Origin: Atrichornis clamosus
Taxonomy: Eukaryota; Chordata; Aves; Passeriformes; Menuridae
Assembly: GCA_013400975.1 (NCBI GenBank)
Contig: WBMZ01014153.1
Location: 62,001-126,000 of the forward strand
DNA: 64,000 bases
Direction: 5' to 3'
Every line of letters starts with the position of its first letter. Positions within the stretch are counted from its first letter, which is position 1. This document shows, piece by piece, positions 17,403 to 42,500 of this stretch. The notes below the pieces were generated by a model. It saw only the letters and a program-made list of their open reading frames with translations. It had not been told where the DNA came from and searched no databases. A program made the translations under genes and the position numbers.

Positions 17403-17409
17403 ATGGAAG
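17403..17409 (+). CDS. Transglutaminase coding exon 1 (Met-Glu-Val/)
   Basis: Seven coding bases (ATG GAA G) lie before a strong donor (GTAAGG at 17410). They join in phase 1 to exon 2 to give Met-Glu-Val-Ile-Glu-Leu. Transglutaminase genes typically have a tiny first coding exon with the initiator Met and a few residues, and this one fits in position, phase and Kozak context. It is too short to be found by ORF calling, and I located it by searching upstream of exon 2 for an ATG with a phase-1 donor. Confidence 0.65.
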
Positions 17410-20400
17410 GTAAGGCTCTTGAAACTTTACTATCCCTTAAATTAGGACTGAAAGCAGAAATGATTAAATGATCAGGTGTACTGACATAAAAAATTGCTCA
17501 TATTTTTGTGTATGGCATCAAATCTAGGGACCACTTGTATGTTTGGATGTTCTTTGTGGAGCTAGTGAGAAAGGAAAAGAAAACAACTTTTGAAAACAAA
17601 CCTTTTATGAAGGAAAAAGAGACCTATGGAGAAGATTTAGTGAAACAACAGCCAATTATGAGAATAGGAAATAGCATGGAAAAGAATACATTTTATTTAC
17701 AGCATAAAGTACAAAGTACTAGGCTTCAGTATTCTCATGCAAAAAGCAATTATTTCACAATGAATACCTGAAGTATTCTCTCTTGAATGAAGGCAAAATA
17801 TGAATTCATAGAGAAAACCCACTGACTGGTATTGACGGTCAGGTTTCTACCAGAGGCAGAAAACCAGTAAGAGATGTGAAATTGAATTGTTTTTAGTACT
17901 TTTTTTCTGAACTGCCTTTGCTTAAGGAAGTAATCATTAGCTCTTTTGTGATCCAGTCGTGATACTTAAATCTGATAAGTAAACTGTGGGCTGACTTTAG
18001 AGAACTTCCCTGGGAAACATGCAATATCTCAGCTCCCTGATGTTCCGGTTCAGCTGGATTACTGAATGGATGAAGAGTTGTTTCTTGGTTTATAAATGCC
18101 TCCAGAGGCCGGGCAAGGATCAGGTTCTTTCAGTGTTCTTGAGCGCAGGAATTTGCCATGTGTGCTATAAGCATTTTCAGTTTGACCAGAACACTTTGTG
18201 CTATGGTTGACAAATGTCATTAAGATATGAGATTTTCAGTTCAATTCTGCTGCTATTCCTTGTCAGCAGGTATGTTGTATTCACAAGCAATAATGATGAA
18301 AACTACTGCTGTAATTTTTGGTTGTTGTTGATAGTGTGCATATTTTTAACATGGCTAGCACCCAGATCTGCATTTGTTGCTAATCTCTGTTGAAGAGCTG
18401 AATGACCAATTCATTACCCAATTTAAATGATTAGATGAGAAATGAGATTACTTCTATTCAAGGAAAATGAATCAGAAAAAGTTGTGCCTTTTTCTTCCCC
18501 CTTCCCTACACATCCTCCCCTCCCAATTAATTTAAATTATTATTTAATTCAGGATATTATCCTGGGAAACTCCATTGATTTGTGTTAAAAGTGTCCCAGT
18601 CCCAAGGGCTTAGCTATGAATCCCCCTTTATGTGGATACATCCTTGGTTCTGTATGGGAAAAATTCGTTTCCCTTAAATACCAATTCTGTATTCAATGCT
18701 GTGCTCATGTAATTTGAGAAGTTGCATAGTTAGATTTTTCTGTAGGCTTAGCAGGACCAAACTTAACCCTTTAGAATTATAATGATATACAAGACTTTGT
18801 ACATCAGTAAACCCAATTTCCAAAACTGCTGAGAATCTGTGGCTCCCATCGTCTTCAATTAGAGTGAAGAACTTTGGAAAATAAAAAGTTGTATGCAAAT
18901 AAGCACAGATGAATGTTGCCACCCATCCTTCTGGCACCAGTGTCATAATTACTCCTATGAAATGACTGATATGCAGGCAGGATGCCTAAGGGGGAACAAG
19001 GCAAGATTTTTGTCAAGCTAATCATAGCACTTGGGGTAGATTGTCAGCATTTTTAAATGTCAAAATTTGTGAATATTTCCTTTTCCATTAGGTTCCTCAA
19101 AGATATCTGCAAAGTTTGTATGACTTTGGGAGTGCAGAATGAGACACTTTCCTGCATATTTAACATTATTTACAATTTTTGATAGATATTTATACTTTTT
19201 TTTCATAAATCATTTCGAGTATCACTTAAGCTTTCAAATACCTACGTTTGTTATCCAGTCTTTTATTTATTCTATTTAGTTTATTATTTTATTACTTTCA
19301 TAGAAAAACCCAAACCTCTCAAATGATAGCATGTGCCAAACACTTGCTGTCTAGCTGTGGTTGAAAAGTAACTGTCTGTAGACAGCGTGTTGTAAACTGT
19401 GGAAAGAACATTGCAATGCAAAGTCAATTTTTCAAGTAGAGAAACTATTATCATCCCTCAGCATCAGGTATTTATAATACAAGCAGGCACTTTATAAAGG
19501 AAGTGGAACTTGTATCACAGCTTCAAAAATCAAAGAGTTAGACAAGTTTCCAACTGCAAGCTAGGAAAGTGTTGGACTTTTATGGATGTACATCTCAATT
19601 TCAGTCTTGCTGAATTTTAAACGAAGTCTTGAATGAATTTTTTTAAAGAGTTATCTCTGTGTTTCATCATTGTCTCCTCTTTCACCTAATCCTAGCCACA
19701 GTCAAAGACAGGAACTTAATTATATGTTTTTTTCCTTTGTGGTCCTTTCTGTCCTGCAGTCATTGAGCTGGGAGAAGTTGACTTGAACTGTCCTTCCAAC
19801 TGTCAATTACATAATACTCATTTCTTCGGAACTGACAGACAGATAATAAGGAGAGGACAAGCCTTCAGCTTTTACGCTCGTTTCCAAAATCGGGAATGGG
19901 ATGACTCCGTGGACCAGGCTGCTTTCACTGTGGAGACAGGTAGTCACTCCCAAATACTCTGTAGTTTTCCTAGTCCTTTTGCTGGTTAGTAATATTTCCC
20001 ACAGACGTCTTTCATAGTCTTCATATTCCCATAATCTGCTCATTCATCTTCTGTGTGAAGAGACTACCTTCCCTTAAATCAGGCAGTTCTTCTAATATGT
20101 AAAGTTTTCTCACTCTGCTACAGAAGTGACAAGTGAAAAAGAAATCCACTCTTGGGAGCTTCGCCTTGCAAATCATGGCTAAGCAAATTCCTTGCCTTTT
20201 ACGTGTGCTTTGTTTAGTCTGATGGAAGTGGTTTTTATTTTCCTGAAAAGGTCTCAGACCCTGTGAAACAAATGAGACAAAATGCACCTTCCCAATGGGC
20301 AGATGTCTGGATCAAACCTGCTGGAGTTCTTCCTACAAAATTCATCAGCCAAAATGCATCAGTATCAGCGTGTTTCCTCCCTCCAATGTCTGCATTGGCC

Positions 20401-23400
20401 GTTACATCCTCAATATGCAAATCACATCTTGTGGTCACACATATCAGCGCTGTCTTGGAGATTTTTATGTCCTTTTTAACCCCTGGTGTGCAGGTAAGGA
20501 CTTTAGTGATTATCAGATAGTTTTAAGAAAAATAGCTAATGATGAGTAAAAATGTTGAACTTGTTTATTATTTAGCTGGTAAGTAAAGGATGTAGTCACA
20601 GGAACAATGAGAAACAAGGAAGGATTTCATTTTGTTATTTTTTATTTTTTCATCCAAGTTCAAGACTGTCTTAAGCCAGTGTTTTGATTTCTTTTCTTAG
20701 TGGTAGGAGGGGCGAGATGTAACTTTTTCCCGCAACTTTCACAGTGTCTTGAAAGGAGAGAAAGCACTGGGAACAAACTGAAACACAGAAAGTTGCCTCT
20801 GTTCATCAGGAAACACATTTTTACTGTGAGAGTGACTGAGCACTGGCACAGGTTGCCCAGAGAGGTTGTGGAGTCTCTATCCGTTGAGATGTTCAAAAAC
20901 CGTCTGGATGTGATCCTGGGAAAATGGCTGGAAGCTGGATCAGATCACCTCCAGGCGTCCTTTCCAACCTCCACCATTCTGTAATTCTGTGAATGCTGTG
21001 TTATCACCATAAAATAATTTAGTCCAAATACAAATTAAATTCTGTAGATTTGGCTGTGGTACCAAGCAATTCTGGAGTCTGTAGGGCCTTGCCAAAATCA
21101 TTACATGACAAATATTCACTTTTGTTCTGATTTGATCTAAATCAGACACACAACTCCACGTGCTCAGTGTCTGACTTGTAGAACAGCTTAGGGTGAAGAT
21201 AAATTGCAAGCTCTTCCATTCAGGTGTACTACAGCAGGGAGAGACTTTATAAAGATATTACCTAGCTGTAAGTAGGAATGTACTGTCTGTGAGTACTTAA
21301 AGAGTCCTCAACCTTGAACATGCTTAAAAGTATAAATCAAAAATTGGTAGGAAAGGAAAGAAGGATCCAGTGAAGTAGAAGATACAGAAGTGCTAGAAAT
21401 GTACATTTTGTCTGAATGATAGCTCTACGTCTTTTCCAGATGACCCTGTATATATGGACAATCAGGCCCATAGAGAAGAATATGTTCTGAATGAACATGG
21501 AATACTTTATGAAGGGGTTCACAAGCATATTACCTCTCGACCATGGCATTTTGGACAGGTACTTTTTGAAGACTTTTTTAGAAATAGATTTCATCCATAT
21601 ACTGATAAATGAAGTGTTATCTGTATTTTTCCAGAAATGTATGTTATATTTGTAGTGCAAAGGTTTCTAGGATCAGTCCAGAGTATGCATACAGAAACCA
21701 AAATGTCTGAGGATCTCATTAGAGCTCGAGTAACTGCAACAAAGTTTTCTCTAGCAAAATTAAGGAAACTGCAGAATGTTCTGGAAACAGGTGAAACAAA
21801 TATTGTGCTTCTGGAAGAAAATTATTCCATTGGTCAAACATAAGTAAAAATGAGATGTTTTTCCCTTTGGTTTTCCTTCAGGAAGATAGACAAAACCATG
21901 CAGACCACCAGCAGCTGTGATTGATTTAAAAAAAAAAAGGAAAAAGGGCAGGAGAGGAGAGAGGCAGCTCATAGAAGTGAAAAAGACTGCATTATTGACA
22001 AGAAAAAGGTATTTTATCAACAGCAGAATACCATGATGCTTATGTTATCCTCTCTTCCCCAGTTTGAAGATGGGATTCTGGATATCTGCCTGAAGATCTT
22101 AGATATGGGTGCGAGTTACCATCACGGCTCTGACCGTGACCACTGTTGGCGCAATGATCCTGTGCATGTCAGCATGGTGGTAAATCACATGGTAAGACCT
22201 GTGGGGGTGTCAGACCTCTGAACAGATTGGGTCACACTTCATTATATTACAAAAGGACAAACTGCATTGTAATCTAACACAGTAGGGTAGCAGGGAAAAT
22301 CCCTTATGTGCTCAGATTCACAGGAAAAATTAACTTGTAACACTAATTTTGATGATTTTTAGACATGCTTAGGATGTGAAGACATAGTCAGCTGTTTGAA
22401 AAGGTTGGTTTTGTTTTCTCTTTCTAGATAAGCAGCCATACCACTAACAGTATCATGAAGATTCCAGAAAACAATGATTACCTGAAAGGAACAAAGCCAT
22501 TTTCCTGGAATGGAAGTGTCCCTATTCTTCAGCAGTGGTACAATGGCAGATGCAGGCCAGTCAGATACGGGTACTGCGGATCTCTTGCTTCAGTAATGTG
22601 CACAGGTATGTTTCAGTCTGCCCTTACCTAGTTTATCCAAAAACGAAGAGAGAAAACAAGGATAAAAAACCTTCGACCCTAAAATCTACTTGAAAAATAT
22701 TGCTCATAAACATTTTATTAGACAAGAAACCAAATATTTTTCTCATGCTCCTAATATAATGTTTATTATCAGCCTATTGCTTTCCTATACAGGCTGAAGG
22801 GCAAAAAAAAGAAGATCTGTCTTTTCTGTGACCTTTATGCTATGCAGTTATCAATACTGCAACTTTTATTAAAACACAGAGCAAATACAGCATCATTGAA
22901 TCATAGAATACTTGGGGTTAGAAGGGACCTTTAAAGGTCATCTAGTCCAACCCCATCGTGAAACCAAAATATATGCTTTGGATGAGGTTTGAAGTGTGAT
23001 AAAAAACACTAAGTTATAAACAGGAAGAAGATCTCTAGCAATGCCTCCTCCAAAAAACCAAAACATCAAGCTATTTTGTCCTTTTACTGCGAAGGATGAG
23101 ATTATAGTGGACTAAACTCTACAAAGATTTGAGTTACAACTTTATACCATGTATTTACTGCACCTGCTTCTACATCGCAGACAGTTAAATTGAAATTCCA
23201 TACATGAATCTGTACGTGCCACATTGTTTGCAAGAAAAAAAATTGTGTTTTATTAATGCAGAATGAGGTTAGTGATTTCTGAACTTAAAACAAACCTGTT
23301 TTTTTGGTTGGGGTTTTGTTGGGTTTTAAGTTGAAAGAGTGACAAGCCATTCCTTTCTGGTAGCCTTTATTCAGACTGCTTTTCAAGAAGTAAAAAGAAG

Positions 23401-26400
23401 TTTTGAAGACAGAATCACTGCATCCCAAATATTGCTTCCTATCCATTGTGTTCCTATAATTGCAAAGTAGAATATAAGATAATTATTTATTTAAAAAGTG
23501 AAGGATTTGCTTGATTAATTGTTATTTGTAGTGACTCATTCATATTTGTTTTCTTACAGTGATGAGGTGTTTGGGAATTCCAAGCCGTGTTGTCACAAAC
23601 TTCTGTTTTCCGTGCTCAATTGAGAATCCCCTTGGTATCAATGAGATTTTTGACTGTACTGGCAAAAACCTGTGTGGCAAAGACAAGCTATGGTAAATAA
23701 GAAAAATATAAAGCCCTTTCATTTTAAAAAAATTAAATTATAGGAAGATTGGTGTAAATCTAGCAGATCAGTATCTCTCTTTGGTGTATCCCTTTTTTTG
23801 GTGGGGTAAGGCTCTTCAGTTTCCTAATAATGCATTTCAAACCCATGAAATTACCAAAGAGACAGTCTGCTCAATGTAGATTTTCAAAAAAGGAAAATCT
23901 TTTGTGAGAATTCACGGTGTCTGCTTATCCTTGTTAGCTAAAAAAATAAGGACATCAAATTTAGTATCTGTAAAAGAATGAAGTAGATCATGAAATGCAA
24001 GGGAATAGTTATCACTAATTTGAACTATTACCTTCAGGCATAATCGCTTGGTCGATAACTATGTTGTCCTGATGTTCCTTATAATGAGCTGCTTCCTTAT
24101 AAAGCTTTCAGTTTATCTTAAACTTAAACAAAAGGACTGTGTTAGCACGTTATCAACTAAAAGAACTAATTTGCAATCAGGTCTGTAGAGTTCTGGAACA
24201 AATTTCCAGTCTGAGTGATATAAAACAAACAAAACCACACCTGTCAGAAACATCATTAACAGTGTTAAGACATACAAAGTCTTCAGTTGATTAAAAAATC
24301 AACTCTGACACGGTTTTCCTCTGTCATAAGGCATTTAACTTGATAATCCAAGAGACATATTCAGTTTTATATTCCTTCATCCTGCAGGCGGTACCACTGC
24401 TGGAATGAATCTTGGATGGCTCGCAGAGACATAAATCAGTGCTGTGGTGATTGGCAATGTCTGGATCCAACACCTTTAGAAACAGGAAGAGGTAACTGTT
24501 TATTATAACTGGAATAGTTTTCCTCAGATTTTGTTGTTGACTTTCTCTACTACTCAGGTTACAATGTGTTAAAATATTTTTGTTCTCTGGCTTAGGTTCA
24601 GCTTGCAGTGGTCCTACATGGGTTCGAAGCATCAGGGAAGGGGAACTGGACTTGGATTATGATGGTCATCATATGTTTTCTCGAGTAAATTCAAACTATG
24701 TTGGCTGGCTTTGCCAAAACAATGCCCAAAGAACAAAACTTTTCTGTGACACCTGGCCATGTGGACAACGCCTAATCACCAAGAGTGTTGGCAGTGAGCA
24801 ATTCGAGGATATCACTGGAGCTTACAAGTATGAACTAGGTATGATAAAAACATACTCAGTGTCCTAGATGAAATTTTATATGCTAATCATATAAAAGTAT
24901 CAATGTAATCTCTCCTGTGTTAAAATGCGTAGAACAATCTGAAATTGTCTTTTATTTTTGAAAAAGAAGAAGATGCTTTTCTCTTCAAAGATCTTGACTT
25001 TTAAGCTTCTAAATATATTTAGATGATTCAAATAAAGCACAGAGTAATTAGATCCATTTAGGATAGGATAGGATATTTGAGTTGGAAGGACCTCCGATGA
25101 TCATCTCATCCAACTGCCTCACATGTCAGGACAGACTTATATTGGAAACATAGTATTAAATGCCTCTTTTTAAGGCACTGACAACCATGGGACATCAACC
25201 ACCTCCCTAGGAAGCTTATTCTAGTGCTTGACCAGCCTCGCAATAAAGAAATACTTCCAAATGTCTAGTCTAAACCTTCCCTGGCACAACTTTGAATCAT
25301 TCCCATGGGTCCTGTCCCTGCACAAAAAGAAAAAGAGCTCAGCATCTCTCTTTCCACTTCCTCACCTTAGGAAGCTTCAAAGAACAATGAGGTCACAACT
25401 CAGACTCCTTTTCTCCAAACTAGAAAAAGCCAAAGTCCTTAGCTGTTCCTTAAAGGACAAGCCTTCCAGCCCTTTGAATAACTCTATTTGTATGTACATG
25501 TTTTGGTCTCATCTGTACAGTATTTTAAAATATTAGCAGACTTGAAATAATCTAAAAAAACGCCCAGATTCTTCTAAACCTAGGATTAACATCTTACTTG
25601 TTATTTCTTGTACCAGGTCTGTCAGAAAGCATGCCTACTTACTAAATTCATGTATCATTAGGATATTCTGCTGCTTTTACTTTGGGCTATGGATTACTGA
25701 TTTCCATATTCCAATAGAAGGGAGAAGTTCAACCAGCAAAATCGCCTAAAGGAATGAAGAGTAGATCATAGCTGATTGTACAATTGCAAGTTCTGTGGGA
25801 TTGGGGTTTTTTTTTTTGGTTGGTTTGGTTGGAAAACAACTGCTAGTTTCTTTGTTTGAATGTTGTATTTTACCATTTGAGAGAACTGGTAGCATTTCAT
25901 ATTCACCTTTATCCTTATAAAGAATTATATTTTGAGTTTTGTACTAAGTATATGGTTTGAGATTTACATGATCATTTTAAAATTTCACTGCTTAAAAGTA
26001 CAATAAGGTTTTTAATTTTTTTTTTTCCTGAGATGTTTATTTTCTTCTGTGCATCCAGACTGCCATATCTCATATTTCATTATCTTATGGATTTGCTCTA
26101 CAGCAAGCTACTACTTTAGGTTCCAGGAAGGAGAAGCAATAAATTTAATTATCTTTATTATTTGGGTAGAATAATAATAGGGTTCTTGTGCCTCCAGCAG
26201 ATTCATTATCATGTATCTTCTTCAACAGGTTCTGTTAAAAACAAAGAAGCCTATTACCGGGCTTACAGAAGAATTCACCCAGGGTATTGCAATGCTTCCA
26301 ACTGTCATATTGAGAGAGAGTTATCGTCCCTGAAAAACCCATTTCTGAGTGACTCCGGAATTAACATGAGGTTAAAGATGGCTAACTGCCCAATGTATGG

Positions 26401-29400
26401 TGAAGACGTCCAACTGCACTGGCTGCTTGAAAACCTGCGCAATGAGAACAAAACCCTGAAGTTTAATTTGTGCGCACAAATTATAACCTACAGCGGTTGC
26501 CCAATGGATCAGTTTTGGAAAGACAGTGTGAATGTTACATTGGGTCCAAGAGAAGGTAAGAGGGTGAAATTGTCTAATACCCTTTTATTTTCAGGAGACA
26601 GCTGGTTTTTAGGATTTCTAGAGACTTCCTAATAGTGGTGAGAAGTGAAATGTGTACGGTGTTAAATACTGACAGGTGAATTCCCTTTAGTGTAATCACT
26701 CAAAAATCAACACAGTGTTAATACTATATGTATAGTGACAGGTAAATTGTAGTCTTTCCTTAATTTCTCCAGCTTTAGAGATTCTTACGATAGTTTAAAA
26801 AACTGTTTCCTTTACTATTTCAATCCTGGACTCTATACTCAATACCAAGATAAAGCTGCAGTTGTCTATCAGAAAAGCAATGTTTTCTCTGGCCAGAAGA
26901 TTTTAACCAATGTAAAACATTTGTTTAGACCACCTAGACATACAATATCCTGGGAAGTGCAAAGGTGTAGCAGAACATAAACCCCTGTCTCCATGGTTAA
27001 TATATTTTACTGGAAGAAACAAGATCCCTTTAATTAAACCACATCATTATAAGACAAAATTTCATATTGATATTAACATTCTATTTTACCAGATTTTAAT
27101 TTGTCTATATTTGAATTATTGCTTTAAGGATTGCACTGAGATGAAAGTTTCCAAATGTTGTATAATAATAATGATAATAATAATAATAATAATAACAATA
27201 ACAATAAATCACTAATCTCCTTGTAAATGCACTGATACATTAATTGAAAACTGTGAAACTGATTGATGGAGATAGTAATGTACCACCCTAAGTCAGGAAA
27301 ACTCCTGTCTATTTTCAAAGATGCTGTGATAATATTTATTTAAGCCATTGTAAGTGTCAGTTAAACTACAAGAGGAAGAATGGTGGGAACATGAATCAAA
27401 AATTCAGAAAAAAATTAAAATAAATTTGTTTTACAGTGAAAAAAATTCCTCTGTGTATATCATATAATCAATATGGACCTTATCTCTGTGATCACAACAT
27501 TATGAAAGTGGTTGCTGTCTCAGACCCAGAGTGTGGAGAAGTTCTGATGGTGAGCAGGGATGTTGTGGTCAACAGACCACCTGTTATTGTAAAGGTAAGG
27601 AACTTTAATTATGGGATTTGTGATCTAAAGAACAGATTTGGGGACCCTTATTGGTCACTTCCTAGGTACAATGCCAATGAACTTGAAATACTTTACATTT
27701 TTCTTTCCTTTTATTGCCTTTTTTTATTATTTTAGCAAGATTGGTGTGATTTTTAAAGTAAAACCGTTGACTTAGTAATGTATAGAGATCATAGAAGTAA
27801 ATCACAAAGATAGGCATATGAATAATCCTTTTAAAAGCTTTTTTCCTTGCATTTGTTTACCTCATTGATAATTTTGTAAGGGTTAAAAAACATAAAATGT
27901 GTTTGTTCCTATTCTAACTAGCTACTGAGCCAACCCAGACTGAAAGTACCATGTACTGCAGAGATCTCCTTCTGTAATCCTCTCCAGGAAGATATGAAGA
28001 ACTGCGTAATGACATTAGAAGGCTGTGGTTTATTCAAAGAGCCAATGACCATTGAGTAAGATCATCAGTTCTTTAAATAGTGATAATATTGGGGGTTGAC
28101 CAAGATGTGCAAGATCAGAGCAGGTTTAGAGGGAGACAATAGTTCTGATATTTTCGCCATTTAGCACATGAACAGGACTTTTTGCCCCTTATTACTCTGA
28201 GACTCCATTAAAAGCCTCACTCCTCTTGAGACTGATGGATCATTTAAAGCTGGCAAGATATGCTGCTGCTTCATTTTTCTCAAGATTTAATTTAAGTGGA
28301 TGCATCAAATGTCTGTCTGCACTCTTGTCTTTACAAGAAGCACTAGCTGGGTCCCCCATCCCTTACAATCCTATTGAGTTTATAATAAAATTCCTCTAAA
28401 TATTCATGAACTGGCACCGCATATAGGAACAATTAGAGAACGACAGTGAGAAATAGCAATATGCATTCTAAGCTCATAACACGTTAATCACAGGAAACTG
28501 GAAACTTCCAGGATGCAGTAACATTCTAAGAAAAGTAGCTGTTCATTAATATGCATTGCTTCTCTTCATGACAAGGAGAACTGACAAAAGTATGACTAGT
28601 TTTGAGGGGAAGAAATTAGGAATTGTTCTCACTGAATAATAATGAACTGGATTCTGCAAAGCCACCCTATTGGACTGCTGGAAATGGTAAGCAATAAATA
28701 CACCTTTGAGGCAGAAGGGTGCTACATTTTTTAAGATTTCGAGAGAGTACCACAAATGACTTTCCAATTCCAGTTATAGAATTAACTATGGGAGTCTTCC
28801 AAATCTTGTCTTGGGACAGAAGTTTTTACCATGCTTTTCACAACAGAGAATATGTATTTTTGGAAGAAGACAAGAATAACAGTTATCGTAACAGTTTGTC
28901 TCTAAAAGATGTCACAGTGAATCAATCTTAATTTTGTGCACTCATCTTGTAGTGCTTAGGTCTCTGAGCTACCCAGGGTCCTAATTCTTTTCTTTCTCTT
29001 GCTCCAGTTTGGGAACGCTGGCATCCAACCAACAGGCACGGACCATCGTAGAGTTCACACCTTACAGGCTTGGCAGCCACCGACTCCTGGCCAACTTTGG
29101 ATGTCACAAGTTTGCCTACTGCAAGGGATGTGCCAAGGCTGAAGTGTGTGGCTCCACGGGCCAGAATGGTGTCCGGCCAGTCAGCCAGAACGGGTCACTC
29201 CCCGTGTGTGAAAACGGCTCCCTCCCCGTGAATGGCTCTGGGCCTGTCCCCGTGGCAGACCCTGCGTTCAACTCCATGTGTGAATATATATGTATCCCAG
29301 TGTGCAATCCAAACTGCAGTGCAGGGGGCCAGCCTGTGTACGACTTCGTGTACCTCCCTGCGGGCCATCCCTTATGCAACTCCATCTGCAACCAAGGCTT

Positions 29401-30673
29401 TAATCCAAGCATCAATCCTGGTTTTGAGATGGGATGCGATCCTGGCTTCCGCGTCATATGCGAGACTGTACCTCCTGCTACATGTGCTCCAATGCCTCCA
29501 TCCATGTATGGCTCCATGCCTGCCCCAGCATCCAACCCTGTTTGCACCCCTATGCCTCATGTGGTGTTCGAGACAGGTCCTGCTCCCACACACCCATCCG
29601 CAGGTGGAGGGGGGCCAATGTCCTATTCTGTCTCTGTCCCCGCGAATAATGCGGTGAGTGCATTGCTGACCCACTTCATGGCCGGCCCCAGCCCCAATGG
29701 GGCAACCCAGGCAGTCCCTATGTCTGCTCCACCATCCTACTCCATGTGCTCTCCAGTAGTCCACACCATCGGCAGTCCTTTGCAACCTCCGACTCCCCTT
29801 TCAGTGCCTGGTGCCTCCATCTCACATGTTGTCTGTGGCTCCACACCCTCTCCCACCGCCCAGCCTCCGTGTGGCCCAGTGGCCACCCTGTCCTCCCAGC
29901 CCCTGAGTGCCGCGGTAGCACACGGCGTGTGCTCCCCAGTGGCTTCCCCGGTGCCCCGCGCTGCCGACCGCAGCAGCACCCCAACAGTGCTGCAGATGGG
30001 GAGCAGCACTCGCTCGCTGTGCTCGCCAGCCCCCCGTCCCGTGGGGCCCCCGGCATCCCACTCGCTGTGCTCTCCAGCCTCCCGTCCAGCCGGGCCCCCC
30101 GCGACCCACTCCCTGTGCTCGCCCACCTCCGCCGCGCTGGGGGCCCGCCCTGCCAGCTCGCCCGCCGCGCAGTCCTTGGACCCCTCAGCCGCTGCCTGCC
30201 TGCCGTGCCCCCCGTCCCCGCGCCCCCTGGCAGGTGCCACGGCCCGCTCCCTCTGTGCCGCCACCTCTCGCTCCATCTCCCAGCTCGTGGGCACCCCTGG
30301 GTCTCGCTCACTGTGCGGGTCTCAGTGGGGCCCCTCCTGTGACACCACCAGTCGCTTGGGCTCCCAGTCCACGTGGGCTCTCACCTCCCGATCATTGTGG
30401 AGTCCCGAGGGGCGCTCGGGCTACTCCTCGACCCGTGCCACCTACGGCACACTTACACGGCCTCCGTACAGCTCCTTGAACCGCTCCTCCTACAACACCT
30501 TGTCCCGCTCTGCCTACTCTACCCTACCTCGCTCCTCCTCTCCCTCTGCCTATGCCACCCTCACCCGCTCCGGGTCGTGCCCCTCTGGCAGTACCCTGGC
30601 ACTGGCAGGGTCCCGCAGGCCCTGGAGTCCCGGGAGGAGCACTCTCACCTATTTCAAACGCAAATACTTGTAA
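17403..30673 (+). CDS. Cysteine-rich transglutaminase-like protein with a ~507-residue C-terminal repetitive tail (13 coding exons, 1206 aa)
   Basis: The CDS is spliced: join(17403..17409, 19760..19939, 20251..20493, 21440..21558, 22063..22191, 22428..22605, 23560..23692, 24388..24491, 24596..24838, 26229..26555, 27437..27594, 27922..28055, 29008..30673). All introns are GT-AG and the frame stays open for 3621 bases. Exon sizes such as 119, 129, 178 and 104 bases are those I know for the transglutaminase family. Domains: N-terminal beta-sandwich ~3-145, catalytic core ~146-455, beta-barrels ~490-590 and ~595-699, then a Cys/Ser/Pro tail 700-1206. Family members cross-link Gln to Lys using Ca2+. 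Here the Cys276/His333/Asp356 triad is kept, but the oxyanion Trp and the Ca2+ ligands are substituted, so activity is doubtful. There is no signal peptide, so the protein is probably cytoplasmic. By eye it shares features with TGM3, TGM5 and TGM6; a tree is needed to name it. The intact frame argues against a pseudogene. A structural role in cornified tissue is inference. Confidence 0.9.
19760..19939 (+). CDS. Transglutaminase exon 2 (start of N-terminal beta-sandwich)
   Basis: The acceptor is TGCAG ending at 19759 and the donor is GTAGTC at 19940. The exon is 180 bases, residues 3-62. It carries the family signature around IIRRGQAFSF (the 'hhRRGQ-F' motif) and ends in TVETG. The usual HHT just after the first strand reads HNT here. 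Two extra cysteines flank the first strand. Confidence 0.9.
20251..20493 (+). CDS. Transglutaminase exon 3 (rest of the beta-sandwich)
   Basis: The exon is 243 bases, residues 63-143, flanked by AAAAG and GTAAGG. It ends with the family landmark 'hLFNPWC' and contains the 'IGRY-L' strand. It is unusually cysteine-rich, with nine Cys in 81 residues. Four of them lie in a C-x6-C-x6-C-x4-C spacing at residues 67-86. The correct frame is the one reading VFPPSNVCIGRY; the other open frames over this stretch are shadows. Confidence 0.9.
20709..20997 (+). mobile_element. CR1 LINE 3' fragment (intron 3)
   Basis: One frame reads the C-terminus of the CR1 ORF2 protein (HRKLPLFIRK, FTVRVTEHWHRLPREVVES, FKNRLDVILG). 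The fragment ends in the CR1 3' signature with 'ATTCTGTAATTCTGTGA'. It is 5'-truncated, as is usual for avian CR1. It sits in intron 3 in the same direction as the gene. Confidence 0.9.
21440..21558 (+). CDS. Transglutaminase exon 4 (start of catalytic core)
   Basis: The exon is 119 bases, residues 144-183, between CCAG and GTACTT. It has the family pattern D-x-V-[FY]-h...REEYVLNEHG-hh-x-G followed by the 'W-[NH]-[FY]-GQ' junction (WHFGQ). It is the only exon without an added cysteine. Confidence 0.92.
22063..22191 (+). CDS. Transglutaminase exon 5
   Basis: The exon is 129 bases, residues 184-226, between CCCCAG and GTAAGA. It starts with FEDGILDICLKILD, close to TGM5 and TGM6, and ends in the 'RNDPVHVSMVV' helix. 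The next residues would normally contribute calcium site 1. Here the TGM3 'AM(I)NSNDDN' type stretch spanning the exon 5/6 junction reads HM/ISSHTTN. Confidence 0.92.
22428..22605 (+). CDS. Transglutaminase exon 6 (nucleophile Cys276, altered active-site motif)
   Basis: The exon is 178 bases, residues 227-285, between TTCTAG and GTATGT. The landmarks SWNGSVPILQQW and RPVRYG are normal. The nucleophile is kept as Cys276 (codon 22575-22577), but GQCWVFA has become GYCGSLA. In an ungapped alignment to TGM2, the oxyanion-stabilising Trp241 falls on Glu240. These are family-invariant positions in active transglutaminases. Confidence 0.92.
22894..22957 (-). mobile_element. Short CR1 3'-end fragment (intron 6)
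   Basis: The reverse complement of the CR1 3' end is recognisable ('GAATCATAGAATACTTGG', then 'AGAAGGGACCTTTAAAGGTC', 'ATCTAGTCCAACCCC'). Only about 65 bases are recognisable. It is antisense to the gene. Confidence 0.8.
23560..23692 (+). CDS. Transglutaminase exon 7 (degenerate calcium loop)
   Basis: The exon is 133 bases, residues 286-330, between TTACAG and GTAAAT. The beginning (VMRCLGIPSRVVTNF) is typical. The following loop, usually N-S-A-H-D-T-D-x-N-L, reads CFPCSIENPLG with no gap, removing the Asp ligands of calcium site 3. Five cysteines are present. The exon ends with the Trp codon (Trp330) equivalent to TGM2 Trp332, split by the intron. Confidence 0.9.
24388..24491 (+). CDS. Transglutaminase exon 8 (catalytic His333 and Asp356)
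   Basis: The exon is 104 bases, residues 330-364, between TGCAG and GTAACT. W-N-F-H-V-W-N-E is represented by WRYHCWNE, keeping His333 (24395-24397). G-G-W-Q-V-L-D-x-T-P is represented by DWQCLDPTP, keeping Asp356 (24464-24466). The exon includes a Cys-Cys pair and two other cysteines. Confidence 0.92.
24596..24838 (+). CDS. Transglutaminase exon 9 (end of catalytic core)
   Basis: The exon is 243 bases, residues 365-445, between CTTAG and GTATGA. It has the family pattern C-G-P-x-x-V-x-x-I-[RK]-E-G-[DE]-h (here SGPTWVRSIREGEL), F-x-x-V-N, I-[ST]-T-K-[AS]-V-G-S and E-D-I-T-x-x-Y-K-Y. The PEG after KY, which supplies a calcium-site-2 Glu, reads ELG across the exon 9/10 join. Confidence 0.92.
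25061..25520 (-). mobile_element. CR1 LINE fragment (intron 9)
   Basis: The sequence runs from 'GGATAGGATAGGATATTTGA' and 'GTTGGAAGGACC' through 'CTAGGAAGCTTATTC' and 'TTCCAAATGTCTAGTCTAAA' to 'TTCTCCAAACTAGAAAAAGCC'. This is the reverse complement of a CR1 3' region. The 102-residue open frame over it is not a gene. Confidence 0.85.
26229..26555 (+). CDS. Transglutaminase exon 10 (linker and first beta-barrel)
   Basis: The exon is 327 bases, residues 446-554, between CAACAG and GTAAGA. It covers the helix after the core, a variable linker with NASNC and ANCPMYG, then barrel-1 strands (LHWLLENL, TLKFNLCAQIITYSG, FWKDSV-VTLGPRE). These align well with TGM3, TGM5 and TGM6. Five cysteines are present. 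Confidence 0.9.
27163..27208. repeat. AAT-type trinucleotide microsatellite (intron 10)
   Basis: About 46 bases of ATA/AAT units are interrupted by one ATG and three CAA-like units. The antisense open frame of poly-Leu here is a repeat artefact. Confidence 0.9.
27437..27594 (+). CDS. Transglutaminase exon 11 (first beta-barrel, second half)
   Basis: The exon is 158 bases, residues 555-607, between TTACAG and GTAAGG. It holds the family landmark I-x-Y-x-x-Y-x-x-Y-L (here ISYNQYGPYL), then VVAVSD and the strand leading to the second barrel. Three cysteines lie at positions that are usually polar. Confidence 0.9.
27922..28055 (+). CDS. Transglutaminase exon 12 (second beta-barrel)
   Basis: The exon is 134 bases, residues 608-651, between AACTAG and GTAAGA. 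It carries the motif F-x-N-P-L-x-x-x-h-x-x-C-x-h-x-h-E-G-x-G-L (here SFCNPLQ...CVMTLEGCGL), typical of the C-terminal barrel of the TGM3/5/6 group. The frame continues in phase 2 into exon 13. Confidence 0.9.
29008..30673 (+). CDS. Transglutaminase exon 13: end of second barrel fused to a Cys/Ser/Pro-rich repetitive tail
   Basis: The 1666 coding bases follow GCTCCAG and end at TAA 30671-30673. Residues 652-699 finish the second barrel (TPYRLGSHRLLANFGCHKF, closest to TGM3/TGM6), where related proteins normally end. The frame then runs on for ~507 residues in the same exon. The tail comprises (Q/E)NG-x-x-PV repeats (~704-730), a C-x3-C-x3-C-x3-C cluster (743-755), Cys/Asn/Pro and Met/Pro segments, SLCSP repeats (~890-1080) and Tyr-x-Thr-Leu-x-Arg repeats (~1124-1175), ending in a basic FKRKYL-like terminus. 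It has ~24 Cys and almost no Lys. No stop or splice signal separates barrel from tail. The long open antisense frames here are shadows of GC-rich sequence. Confidence 0.88.
30014..30130 (+). repeat. Coding tandem repeat, 48-base (16-residue) units
   Basis: Two full units (30014-30061, 30062-30109) and the start of a third encode SLCSPAPRPVGPPASH, SLCSPASRPAGPPATH and SLCSPTS. They are in frame with the tail, so copy number can change without a frameshift. Looser relatives (SMCSPV, GVCSPV, SLCAAT, SLCGS, SLWSPE) lie on both sides. Confidence 0.8.
30423..30575 (+). repeat. Coding repeat of Tyr-x-Thr/Ser-Leu-x-Arg type
   Basis: About five imperfect units of 8-12 residues (YGTLTRPP, YSSLNRSS, YNTLSRSA, YSTLPRSS, YATLTRSG) form the penultimate part of the tail. 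Cys gives way to Tyr and Arg here. Confidence 0.7.
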
Positions 30674-30707: not shown

Positions 30708-30713
30708 AATAAA
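30708..30713 (+). terminator. Polyadenylation signal AATAAA of the transglutaminase gene
   Basis: A canonical AATAAA lies 34 bases after the stop codon, so the 3' UTR would be only ~60 bases with cleavage near 30725-30740. Nothing between the stop and this signal suggests further exons. Confidence 0.7.
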
Positions 30714-36847: not shown

Positions 36848-39149
36848 CTAAGTTACTTTCTCTCAAAGATTGTCCTGTGGCTGCTTTTTAGCAAGAGACG
36901 GTCTACAAGAAGATTTAATTTGTAAAGATGTAAATTACTTGAGTTGCTTTTAGATGTAATCTTTATATTCTGTATCTTGGCTGATAGATTTCCAGAGAGC
37001 TGGCATAGGAAAACAAATGTGAAAAACTTCTGCCAGGTACTTCCTTTGAAGATGGCATAATTTTTGTAGTTACAAATGTATATATTAAAATTAGGGTAAA
37101 ACAACTGCTGAATGTGTGGATGATACTTTTCTGTTAATTTTAAAGCTTGTGATTTATTGACTATGCTTTTGTTAAAAAAGTTTAGTTCTGCTCAATTTGT
37201 TCTTGAGTTTAAAAATAAGCTACAACAGGGCTAAGGCATTGGTCTTCCTTTCACAAATATAGACACATGTATTGGTATATTGGATCTAAAATCTCTTGCA
37301 TATAAATCTTTAAAAGTGAAAAGATTATACTGTCTGTTGTAATGTAAAGAATTCTTTGACATCTCCGCAGTGGAGTATTTCCCAAACAGTTAAACTCCTC
37401 TTAAAATTGTAAAGAATATTTTAAATTGCCAAATTATCTGGGGCTTTTGTGTGTGTGAATCAGCAAACATCTGAAAATAAGTATAAAAATATCAAATCTT
37501 TTTGTTGTAATATAAAAGCAGATAATGGAAAGGAGGGTGTACTTTTTTGTTATCATTTCATTTAAAAGCACTTCAGAGCTAAGAACATGGGAATTTTCAT
37601 CAGTACATGTTGGGTATAGTGCAAATTGTTTGTCATCTTAGGACTCAGGTAGGAGTAAGACAAAGTTTGACAACCTATACTTAACACAGCTAGACTTTCC
37701 TGCATTAATAAAAAAATTGAAGAGGCAAACTTAATTTGGATTGCAAATTTTAAGGTGCTTTTGCTAAGCTTTTATGTGAGCACAACAGTTTTGTCAGAAA
37801 CTATTAAAGTGTAAATTGCAGCTGATAGGCCCCTGTTATTATTCTGAAAAAGAAAAGGAGCTCTTCCTTAATGAGAGATCTGAGCACTGTTCCATTATTT
37901 GGCACAGTGTTGTGTTCGATTAAAAGATAATGACATTGGGCACACAGCTATTTGGATTTGAGTTGCTACTGCAAATCAGGATATTAATCATATGAATTTA
38001 TGCTAAGTGCGCTTAAGTAGAATAATGTTTAAGTAAGCATTATCTTCACCTGTCTCATTGGGACTGGAAAGAGCATTTAAAATAGAACAACTGTTTAATT
38101 ATTTGACTGAATCCTACCTGATGGGAAGCTACTATTCACCATATGGCTTAATGAATCCCTAGTTAATAAACTGTGAATACTATATCTGAAAGATAACAGA
38201 GACAGTTAAATAAGAGCATTTTAATTCTAAACCATATGTCTCAGATATTAAAAGAAAGAAAACTAGGAAGTGATTCATGATATTGGATTGGAAGAAAATA
38301 ATTACTTGGTTTTGTTTGAAAACAATATAGCATAATACACAAGTGCCCTGTATTGATTTTTTTATGGGAAAAAAATTGGATTAAAATAATACTAAAGAGA
38401 AAAAGAGGTAACATAGCCACTTGTGTATTTTCATTGTTCTCCAACTAGAAAAAATCCTTCGTCTTGATTCAGACATTCAAATGAGGGAGGCAGAACTAAG
38501 ATGTATATTTTTGTCTAAAAAACAAACGTTTTGAGGAATAGCAGTAAAATATGGAAGTATTTAGAGCTTGAATGTGAAAGACCTTAAAATGAAGCCTCAT
38601 CAAAACCTTGAAGTAAGCTATTTGGGAGGAAATAATTTACGTCCTGTTGTGGACATCCCTAGTGTCTAAGATCAGTATATAGTGATGCTCAAATGGCCTC
38701 TTTGATTAAGAAATTTTGACGTCTACTTTTCAATGTCTGGTAGATTGTACATACTCTCAAAAGAGTAAAGATTTGCATTGAAAATACTTGATTTATTATT
38801 AAGAAAATCTACTTGAGTTTTCTGGGAATGCAGAGCTTGTACTGCAACTTTTGACCTTGCCTAATATCTGTCAATGTAAAAATCCTTGATTTTAAGTTTT
38901 GCTGGATTAAGGATTTTGCATTAAATGTGAGTCTTACTCCATTTTGTGTTATTTATATCCAAGATTATTGAACTGAGTGTGAAACGCTTTCTTTGACAGA
39001 TGTTCCCTGCGAATACTTCTCCTTTTCAAAATTCTAGGAAATTTTAATTTGTATTATATACATATAAGAGATGATTCTACTTGTCTGACCTCTTGCAGTT
39101 GCTTTGGTAGCTGGTCTTTCGCCCTGGAAATGTTATCATATGCAGCCAT

Positions 39150-39530
39150 GCAGCCGAGCTGTGCGCCGGCGGCTGAGGGAGGGGCGGTCCCCTTGCCCTC
39201 ACCCGGGACCCGCTCGGAAGCCGCCGCTCCTGCCCTTGGTCTTGCCTGAGCCGGCGGGCAGCTACCCCTGAGCCTCCTACCCCCCATTCCCGACCCTGAC
39301 CACCACCTCAGCCTGGCTTCAGCTCCTCCCCGTCCCCGCGTCCCTGCCGAGCCGTCCTGCGGCTGTGAGCGCCGCCGAGGCCCTGCTCTGCCCTCCCCGC
39401 TGAGGCGCTCCGGGGGCAGCAGCTCCCGCGCCGTGTGCTGCCTGCCCCCGGCCGCACTGCCGCGCCTGGCTCCTGGCTCGCCTCCCTCGCAGCTTCCTGA
39501 CAGGCACACGGACCTCCCGCCGCAATTTTG
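39150..39530. promoter_or_regulatory. Isolated CpG-rich island, possible promoter
   Basis: About 380 bases of very GC- and CpG-rich sequence (CGCCGGCGG, CCGGGACCCGC, GCGCCGCCGAGG) interrupt AT-rich DNA on both sides with sharp edges. CpG islands in vertebrates usually mark promoters. Open frames on both strands across it are compositional. On the minus strand an ATG near 39150 opens a 20-codon stretch ending at a weak GTCAGA donor, so a leftward first exon is possible but unsupported. A GC-rich retroposed insert is the alternative. Confidence 0.45.
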
Positions 39531-42500
39531 ATTCCTCCCATTTTCTCCTCGGACTGGTTTTGCTAAATATTCCTTGGGCAATCTTTTGTTTCAGACCTGG
39601 CATCAGTGGGGCAACCTGCTGATGCATAAAATCACTTTAGATGTCTTTCTTCCTTGATTAATTCACAGTTTGATGTGGCTCCTGCAGATATCAGTGTCCA
39701 AAATCCTGCTGGATTCACTGAAGCAGGAAGAAACTTGAAGAATTTTATAGTATAAGCTCTGTGTGTATGAAGGGTATATGAAATCTAATAATAATGTTTG
39801 ATCATCTGAAAATTATATTCTAAGTGTAATATTTATTACCTATATTTCAGCAGGGCTTTCACCATACATCTCTTTTTCCATTAGCAATTTATCATCTTCT
39901 TCATTAGCAATATATCATGTGCATAATAAGTATTTATTACAGTTTCTCTCTGGGCTGAAATTATGTTTCAGAATGAAAATACAAATGATTTATTGACACA
40001 GAAGAATACTAATTACTGACAAAATCCCTGGAAAATTGGGATAACATAGAGCTTTGGCAATGAGATGTTAACTTCTCTACGTACAATAAATTTTCAAACT
40101 TAGCATATGCCTGTGAGGAATAAATATCACAGCCTTACTCATAATAAATATGGAAAGAGCAAATGTGTCTTAAACAAACAAACAAAATATATATAATAGA
40201 ACTTTTGAAAGAATGAACTTCAAGTAAAATAAAAAGTGGATTTTATACTTGAAGTGATCAACAAATATTTTCTGTTGAAGAAGGTATTTGCTTGAAAGGC
40301 AGAAGTTCTTAAATAAATCTTGTCTCCTCTTCCTCATAACTTTATTCTCTAATAATGACTTGGCTTTAAAATTGTGAATCAGTAGCTACTTCTATTATTA
40401 GTCTGAATCAATAGTGATTATTATAATTATTAATTACTATGGTCCTGCAGTTTAGGCTCCCAATGTACAGTATAAATAATTTACAGAAACCAACAAGAAA
40501 AAGGACAGACCCTTTCCAGATAGCCAGGTTCCCTCAGTGCTGACTTTTTAGTGATCTGATTCCCCAAATGGATCCAAATACTCAAACCAATATCATAAGT
40601 TCCCAGATAATGAACAATGGAAATTGCTTGTCTAAAAATTATCCCATTAAACCCAGCATGCCAAGTAACTCTGGAACTATCTAGCCGGAAGTATGGAGCA
40701 GAAGAACAAATTATGGAGGAACATAGGTGACATGGATTGAGATACAGTATGATTTTACAGTATATATGTTAAGGTGGAGGAAATATCTGGTTCTCAGTAC
40801 ATCATCTATATTTTACCCAGTAACCCCTAAAGTGTATAAGAAAAGCAAAAAAAGAAGATGATTTTGGAGTACAGACAGGAAAACAGAGATTCTGTCTTCC
40901 CAGTCTAATACCCTAAGCATTTTGCTATTCAGACATGCTGATTGCTGATCTATAGCACAGAAATTTCATGACTCTTATGTTTCTTTCTGTTCAGCAGCAG
41001 AGTTTCAAGGTAAGAAGTGAAAGATATGTCACAAAACATAGCCTAGGATGAAATGATATATCATCCTACCAGTTAAGGATATTTCCCTCTCCTGTGAGGA
41101 CGAGTTATTCAACAGTCTGTGGAATACAAGAGCTAATGACATCTCCTCCCCCATAAAAGAAAACAGTAGCTGCACTTAATATGAAGATCAACACTATCAG
41201 TGCCAAGTGTGTTAAAGAATGTTTAGCTTGCAGATCTTGAGCTGGGTTTGGTACAAACCAGCTGCTCACGCTGGTGCAAACCAGCTGCTCAGAGAGCACG
41301 AGTGGGATGTGCAAACTGCAAAGTTTGGCCAGTGTGAGGAAACAAACTGGGCACATAGAGAATTACAGTGCCTCCAAGCTAACTCTGCATCTAGGTGCCT
41401 GCATTTGTCAGTATCTCACTTTAAGTGCTTTAACCCACTGTGAAATTCACCTTTATTTAATGAAAATATAACCAACACTAAGGAGAATTCCTATGAATCA
41501 AGGTACCTGTCTCTGTTTTCTTATTGAGGCAAGAAAAAGAAGCTGGATTCCAAAATCACACAGTTAATTTGCATTTTTTCACATATGAAAAATTCACAGA
41601 TTTCTTGCTTCTTTTTTTAAACCATAGATATATGTGCTGGCATTGCATTTTACCATTTCTGTATGACAAGCAGTCTATGTAATATGCTTTTTTAACTTCA
41701 TATTTCATTGGTTTACTTTAGACAGGTTATTTTCATTTTGCTTTGAGTAGCATTGTGTTCATTTTGGCTAAAACTCTTTGGAGTGCACAGAGTAGACTGA
41801 ATGATGATGCCATCATTTTATGTTAGTTTAAGACTACATAAGATGGCACTACTACCTGAAATTCTTGGCAGTGTTTTCTTGCCCCAAACATTGTCCCTTG
41901 TTCTGTAAAAATTTAAAAAAATCCTAGCATCACCAAGCAGCTGAAGAAGGTTCTTTGCAAAAACACCTGGCTGGGAGAGGGAGGTTTAAATGTAAATTTT
42001 TTTTTCTGTTGGCTTTTTCTTCTCCAGGTTAATTATCTCAGATGATCCCCGAGGTAGTTCATTGCAAGGCCACATGACTTCATGTGCCTGCAGTTATGGG
42101 TGGAGAAATAATCACCCAGGAATGAGGGGGTGGTGGGTTGACTCTTTGATGGTTGAGCTGGCTTATGTCATATTAAACTGGTTATGAAACTGCAGTGTAA
42201 AACTACTCCATTTAAATGCCATAGTCAGGATCTGTCTCTATAATTTATAGAATTCTGTAAGTTCTATAATTTACATAGTAGCAATGAGCAAACCCAGGAA
42301 AAATAGGGGATAGCAGTTAGATGAACATAGTTGCTATTAAAATATTCCCACTACCACTTTTTTCCGAATGAATTTTAGTAAATAGACATATATACATGAG
42401 AAGATGCAAGAAAATGAAGCTCAGCAGGCAAATAATTGTACTCTTCTGATTTCTGTGACTTCAATAGAACTTCTCAATCAAACTTAAAGATTTAATTTTT

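Follow-up and report, generated by a model that had tools for sequence, protein, structure and literature searches.

The TGM9 Locus

The 64-kb window analyzed here (Atrichornis clamosus, contig WBMZ01014153.1, positions 62,001 to 126,000) contains the transglutaminase gene TGM9, located on the + strand at 17403-30673. The gene occupies 13.3 kb, and its predicted product combines a transglutaminase core with a long Cys/Ser/Pro-rich tail, features that suggest an enzyme turned into a structural protein. The 13-exon model has GT-AG splice sites and agreeing phases, and it encodes 1,206 residues including exon 1; this reproduces the length given in the original prediction, which had been made from the sequence alone. 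The exon count equals the number stated for the TG2-7 group, as the genes for TG2-7 and Band 4.2 have 13 exons (PMC13073648). The closest solved structure is human TGM3 (E 1.3e-136), and the match stops with barrel 2 at about 29130.

Exon 1 contributes the coding bases ATG GAA G (17403-17409, followed by gtaaggct), encoding ME and the first base of Val3. Its assignment depends on a 7-base coding match; the candidate ends in G, and bird orthologs mostly start with MEVIELG or MEVIE. Exon 2 (19760-19939) encodes the N-terminal domain, as indicated by GT-AG sites, consistent phase, and TGM3 homology. Exons 3 (20251-20493), 4 (21440-21558), 5 (22063-22191), 11 (27437-27594), and 12 (27922-28055) are placed by the gene model, and exon 10 (26229-26555) holds the start of barrel 1. 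The remaining exons are described below with the sites they carry.

TGM9 was defined and named in 2024 by Sachslehner et al. (PMC11152450), and database entries call it protein-glutamine gamma-glutamyltransferase 5 or 5-like. A quick-method tree of 51 transglutaminases separates the 16 TGM9 rows, including the window protein, from the rest at a branch that has 100% support in the Shimodaira-Hasegawa-like approximate likelihood ratio test (SH-aLRT). Within TGM9 the branching order is platypus, lizards, turtles, crocodile, and birds. By this placement, the gene is TGM9.

TGM9 mRNA and protein have been reported from the chicken egg tooth, mRNA from chicken skin with growing feathers and from anole claws, and protein from a flycatcher feather data set (PMC11152450). 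The published view is that TGM9 aids cornification by crosslinking (PMC11152450), and it is listed among protein cross-linking enzymes (PMC12821399). Word searches of the main text of PMC11152450 turned up neither a tail or extension of TGM9 nor any loss at its active site, and in the portions consulted of PMC11152450, PMC12821399, PMC11816140, and PMC12665336 we found no mention of a tail or of lost catalytic residues. The tree input in the first of these was trimmed to the region from Transglut_N to the second Transglut_C, so the tail would be excluded. The gene itself is already known; among the papers listed by literature searches on related terms, none was a report of the tail or the residue losses.

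Loss of Catalytic and Calcium-Binding Residues

According to a 2026 review, the oxyanion Trp is strictly conserved in all active human transglutaminases, is needed to stabilize the oxyanion, and is absent from inactive Band 4.2 (PMC13073648). Exon 6 of TGM9 (22428-22605) contains a remnant of calcium site 1, the place of the oxyanion Trp with no Trp in it, and an altered active-site motif, YGYCGSL (22566-22586), with its Cys codon at 22575-22577. Exon 7 (23560-23692) carries former calcium site 3, with SEPGD at the positions of TGM3 DDNSD and the final Asp kept. Exon 8 (24388-24491) retains both the catalytic His (24395-24397) and the catalytic Asp (24464-24466). The first part of former calcium site 2 lies in exon 9 (24596-24838), in which the Asn is kept and the first Glu is replaced by Leu, and the final ligand of this site, in exon 10, is also replaced. 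The Ficedula albicollis gene model (P0001) contains an extra in-frame copy of exon 8, and the window model has none.

These sites were tallied in 15 TGM9 proteins and 85 other transglutaminases (human TGM3 and 84 database rows, including EPB42, invertebrate rows, and a few fused models), with positions mapped on TGM3. Residue identities at the positions taken as calcium ligands and active-site residues were checked in the TGM3 sequence. Twelve partial or redundant TGM9 rows (P0006, P0007, P0009, P0011-P0015, P0019, P0024, P0036, and P0037) were omitted from the tally, and those that cover the sites have the same losses.

The oxyanion Trp (TGM3 237, TG2 Trp241) is present in none of the 15 TGM9 proteins, the window protein included, vs 83/85 of the others; the two others without it are both annotated EPB42. 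The Trp after the catalytic Cys is likewise missing from all 15 (83/85 in the others), and the Gln before it occurs only in platypus (1/15 vs 84/85). Replaced calcium ligands fall in all three sites: N225, D229, N306, and E444 are absent from every TGM9 protein, compared with their presence in 83, 71, 65, and 80 of the 85 others, respectively, and E449 is found in three TGM9 proteins, all from lizards (vs 82/85). Other residues are largely kept, including Trp328 and His331 (15/15 each), Asp354 (14/15, one lizard lacking it), and Cys273 (13/15 vs 83/85 in the others). The Cys-His-Asp triad is complete in the window protein and in 12/15 TGM9 proteins overall. In both turtles the catalytic Cys is Ser. 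The residue losses probably abolish crosslinking, and since the main ones are common to platypus, lizards, turtles, crocodile, and birds, function was probably lost at the base of TGM9.

TGM9 could instead still be an active crosslinker with altered, perhaps calcium-independent, regulation, the tail serving as an anchor or as its own substrate. The retained triad and the overlap of transglutaminase activity with TGM9 mRNA in the egg tooth (PMC11152450) favor this explanation, but the oxyanion Trp is missing throughout, most calcium ligands are replaced, and the turtle proteins have no nucleophile although they still share 88% identity with each other (best local alignment). Moreover, the tissue activity was blocked by ethylenediaminetetraacetic acid (EDTA) (PMC11152450) and TGM3 is likewise enriched in the egg tooth (PMC12821399); the activity could come from TGM3 instead. 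We therefore consider continued catalysis by TGM9 quite improbable.

The C-Terminal Tail

Exon 13 (coding sequence and stop, 29008-30673) begins at 29008 after the acceptor tttctcttgctccag and encodes first the end of barrel 2 (29008-29134) and then the tail of 512 codons (29135-30670), which ends at TAA (30671-30673). A poly-A signal, AATAAA, follows just past the stop (30708-30713). The frame is open from 29008 to the TAA, in agreement with the earlier claim that the barrel runs into the tail within one exon and without a stop. The tail had been placed at 29150 with about 507 residues; it is indeed there, but begins 15 bases earlier and is correspondingly longer.

Ser (86), Pro (78), and Cys (25) are abundant in the 512 tail residues, and there are 13 Gln and only 3 Lys. 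The core has a guanine-cytosine (GC) content of 45%, and that of the tail is higher, at 65%. All three repeat types described before were recovered. The C-x3-C-x3-C-x3-C cluster CEYICIPVCNPNC (29279-29317) occurs once and was present in 15 of 5,000 shuffles. SLCSP occurs three times (30014, 30062, and 30110), compared with a maximum of one in any of 5,000 shuffles, and Y-x-[TS]-L-x-R occurs five times inside 30443-30568, compared with a maximum of two in 5,000 shuffles. Tandem Repeats Finder reported a 48-bp unit (2.5 copies, 30013-30130) that holds the three SLCSP copies, and a 24-bp unit (2.3 copies, 30461-30517) that overlaps part of the Y-x-[TS]-L-x-R repeats. The middle of the tail could be skipped by splicing from a donor-like GTGAGT at 29654 (VPANNA|V) to an acceptor-like CAG that precedes WGPS, at about 30325; the Lonchura gene model P0012 shows such a skip.

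Homologs were collected with the whole protein (33 matches; the best 7,994 word-sharing candidates were scored) and with a turtle ortholog (103 matches), and both searches returned TGM9 and other transglutaminases. Apparently complete bird orthologs have 1,181-1,256 residues (P0001-P0005, P0008, and P0010), and those of Crocodylus and Lepidochelys have 1,154 each; the tail is also present in ostrich, tinamou, crocodile, and turtle. The nearest relative in the tree, Ficedula, is 98% identical to the window protein over 667 columns and likewise 98% identical in the core, and the first, middle, and last parts of its tail are 94% (170/170 aligned), 82% (154/230), and 94% (109/113) identical. Against crocodile, identity is 74% in the core and 48% (138 aligned), 36% (205), and 53% (70) in the parts of the tail; against turtle, the values are 74% in the core and 37% (156), 36% (135), and 41% (98) in the tail. 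Five of the 25 tail Cys are invariant in all eight tail-bearing orthologs compared (residues 744, 748, 772, 800, and 1085, in a numbering that omits the three residues starting in exon 1).

Support for a transcribed tail comes from P0003 (source labelled lgn), a protein of 1,215 residues with a complete tail, for which the longest contig is 4,393 bases in length. P0003 closely resembles the model P0011 from mandarin duck, and its source is therefore probably a duck or goose rather than the species of the window. In the window gene, which spans 13.3 kb, in-frame stops occur in every one of the 11 introns between exons 2 and 13. A contig as short as that of P0003 thus points to splicing across the exon 12/13 join and into the tail, and it is very likely that spliced transcripts include the tail.

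The tail could be imagined to be untranslated 3' sequence that happens to stay open. GC-rich DNA is poor in stops, other frames also have long open stretches, and 4 of 5,000 first-order Markov sequences of the make-up of the tail were free of in-frame stops; taken alone, the open frame is only modest proof of coding. The protein identity across birds, still recognizable in crocodile and turtle, the five unchanged Cys, the full-length protein from the 4,393-base contig, and the position of the poly-A signal after the tail stop make this explanation scarcely credible. Conservation in relatives is much stronger evidence than the open frame, and by that comparison the tail is genuine coding sequence. 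A chance open frame and intron retention were also considered and rejected.

Origin of the Tail

The TGM9 proteins of four lizards and of platypus end 16-17 residues past the barrel, where the tail begins (one lizard row, P0024, is a chimeric gene model at its N-terminus). The other transglutaminases compared end at most 58 residues past the barrel, except for three oversized models (P0034, P0070, and P0087) whose last 300 residues, judged by eye, are unlike the TGM9 tail. The C-terminus of P0034 is a second transglutaminase barrel, and the entry resembles two fused models. The general statement that transglutaminases end at the second barrel is upheld among those compared, with these odd models aside. 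The tail is not unique to this genome, and its distribution dates it to the last shared ancestor of turtles and birds or earlier. Platypus and lizards are tailless and one gain is simpler than two losses, so the tail was probably gained once, on the stem of turtles, crocodiles, and birds.

The tail appears to have arisen by extension of the last exon past a lost stop, followed by growth of short repeats. This would fit the tailless outgroups, which end where the tail begins, and a row of PQVVCGS-type repeats near the start of the tail in the sea turtle. The original prediction proposed the same route, and the tailless lizards and platypus agree with it, but the loss of the stop itself was not seen in the DNA. 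A fusion is the other route to be considered, in which a gene encoding a cysteine-rich corneous protein, either a neighbor or a retrotransposed copy, was captured by the last exon. The make-up of the tail is like that of corneous proteins, its GC content differs from that of the core, and loss or divergence could have hidden the source gene. However, core and tail share one exon, on which ground exon shuffling was also rejected as the source of the tail. A search with the tail gave five matches, all TGM9 or TGM9 fragments, among the best 7,993 candidates scored (lengths 0.55-1.75 times the query), and no Pfam family matched it (E up to 1); low complexity limits both searches. We regard a fusion as very improbable. 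The proposed resemblance to hair or feather corneous proteins is one of composition, and these searches matched the tail to no Pfam family and to no protein outside TGM9. One TGM9 fragment, P0019 from Lathamus discolor, is labelled 'mucin-2-like', probably owing to its tail.

Cysteine Enrichment and Proposed Function

Cysteine is enriched in the core as well as in the tail. The TGM9 cores of turtles, crocodile, and birds contain 35-44 Cys, those of three lizards 33-38, and that of platypus 24, compared with a median of 11 and a maximum of 28 in the 85 other transglutaminases. Turtles, crocodile, and birds account for 11 rows, and 39 core columns hold Cys in eight or more of these; in 26 of the 39, fewer than 5% of the other transglutaminases have Cys. 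Of the 26 TGM9-typical columns, 11 hold Cys in two or all of the three lizards as well, and eight do so in platypus. Because these columns are already Cys in tailless species, the sequences indicate that the enrichment began before the tail. For the tail itself, 25 Cys against only 3 Lys and 13 Gln would fit disulfides better than isopeptide bonds.

Taken together, these features suggest that TGM9 is a likely dead enzyme whose role is structural, in cornified parts of the skin where it would be linked by disulfides, a reading to which we assign a probability of about two in three. The core is predicted to keep the transglutaminase fold and the tail to be disordered, as judged from a model of the ostrich ortholog (the fold-match list for this model spans residues 1-702, i.e., not the tail). 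TGM9 would be made in cornifying cells of the egg tooth, feather, or claw, and its core would fold into a rigid, compact, cysteine-studded block with the shape of a transglutaminase. During cell death, core and flexible tail would then become disulfide-bonded to the mesh of keratin and corneous proteins, and isopeptide crosslinking would be left to other transglutaminases. The lost catalytic and calcium residues and the extra core Cys lend support to the original suggestion that an enzyme scaffold was rebuilt into a building block. In a fuller history, a former crosslinker of horn proteins has been inactive since the first amniotes, was studded with Cys, acquired its tail from sequence beyond the old stop in the ancestor of turtles, crocodiles, and birds, and has become part of the disulfide network of egg tooth, feather, and claw; this history is in our judgment evenly balanced between true and false.

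A dead TGM9 might also work as a scaffold or regulator like Band 4.2, binding transglutaminases, keratins, or membranes, with the tail as a flexible binding arm. The Cys enrichment in both core and tail is better explained by disulfides in cornified cells, and no known domain was detected in the tail in the Pfam search described above. We consider this role unlikely, though less so than the other alternatives.

Several observations weigh against a dead, disulfide-linked TGM9. Most TGM9 proteins keep the catalytic triad, for which an entirely dead protein would have no need, and the calcium ligand N394 is retained in all 15; D325 is either kept or changed to Glu in every TGM9 protein, and Glu stands in place of D304 in turtles, crocodile, and birds (11 rows). 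The overlap of TGM9 mRNA with transglutaminase activity in the egg tooth also belongs here. The low Lys and Gln content is an argument for disulfides from composition and is no measurement. The entries with a tail are mostly models from automated annotation, and P0009, P0011, P0012, P0013, and P0018 are truncated or skip parts of the tail. None of the matches is labelled as chicken (protein XP_040519905.1), the species with the most expression data. In addition, the tree program flagged long branches for P0092, P0033, P0107, and P0031 and odd make-up in P0025, P0016, and P0008.

TGM9 has been presented as a transglutaminase whose gain and loss track the egg tooth (PMC11152450). If TGM9 is catalytically dead and structural, the link between the two would mark when a building block arose rather than when a crosslinking activity did, and the gene would offer a stepwise example of an enzyme turning into a structural protein.

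Other Features of the Window

TGM9 is expected to lie between TMX3 and DSEL. TMX3 gave no credible match in the 64-kb window (best E 5.7 with a human sequence), and the gene may fall outside it. DSEL is a long single-exon gene, and the window contains no open frame of sufficient length for it (longest 562 aa); DSEL may also lie outside. A GC-rich region on the - strand (39054-39590) contains an open frame of 178 codons and may be the 5' end of another gene. Within intron 3 of TGM9 (20700-20985), the translation LPREVVESLSVEMFKNRLDV is reminiscent of a common avian repeat-derived sequence.

Comparison With Known Systems

The window gene falls in the same clade as published TGM9 and has the same species range (birds, crocodilian, turtles, lizards, and platypus). 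TGM3 provides the best match among solved structures, and TGM9 is predicted to have the same fold. TGM3 differs in that its catalytic, oxyanion, and calcium residues are kept and the protein ends at barrel 2.

A recent review of the human transglutaminase proteins names Band 4.2 (EPB42) as the inactive one (PMC13073648), and it resembles TGM9 as a structural protein with a transglutaminase fold and a missing oxyanion Trp (PMC13073648). In a bird EPB42 (P0092), Glu occupies the position of this Trp. Unlike TGM9, P0092 keeps the QCW motif and several calcium ligands, and it falls outside the TGM9 branch with 100% support, although its branch is long and its own placement is unsure. EPB42 also differs in its role at the red-cell membrane and in its C-terminus, which extends seven residues past the barrel and has no Cys-rich tail.

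EDCRP and EDDM are Cys-rich proteins of the epidermal differentiation complex (EDC) that occur in the egg tooth and are thought to be disulfide-linked (PMC12821399), and we infer that TGM9 would work in a similar way. They differ from TGM9 in that tail homology was not detectable beyond TGM9 itself in the searches with the tail, and in that the Cys-rich tail of TGM9 is fused to a large folded domain.
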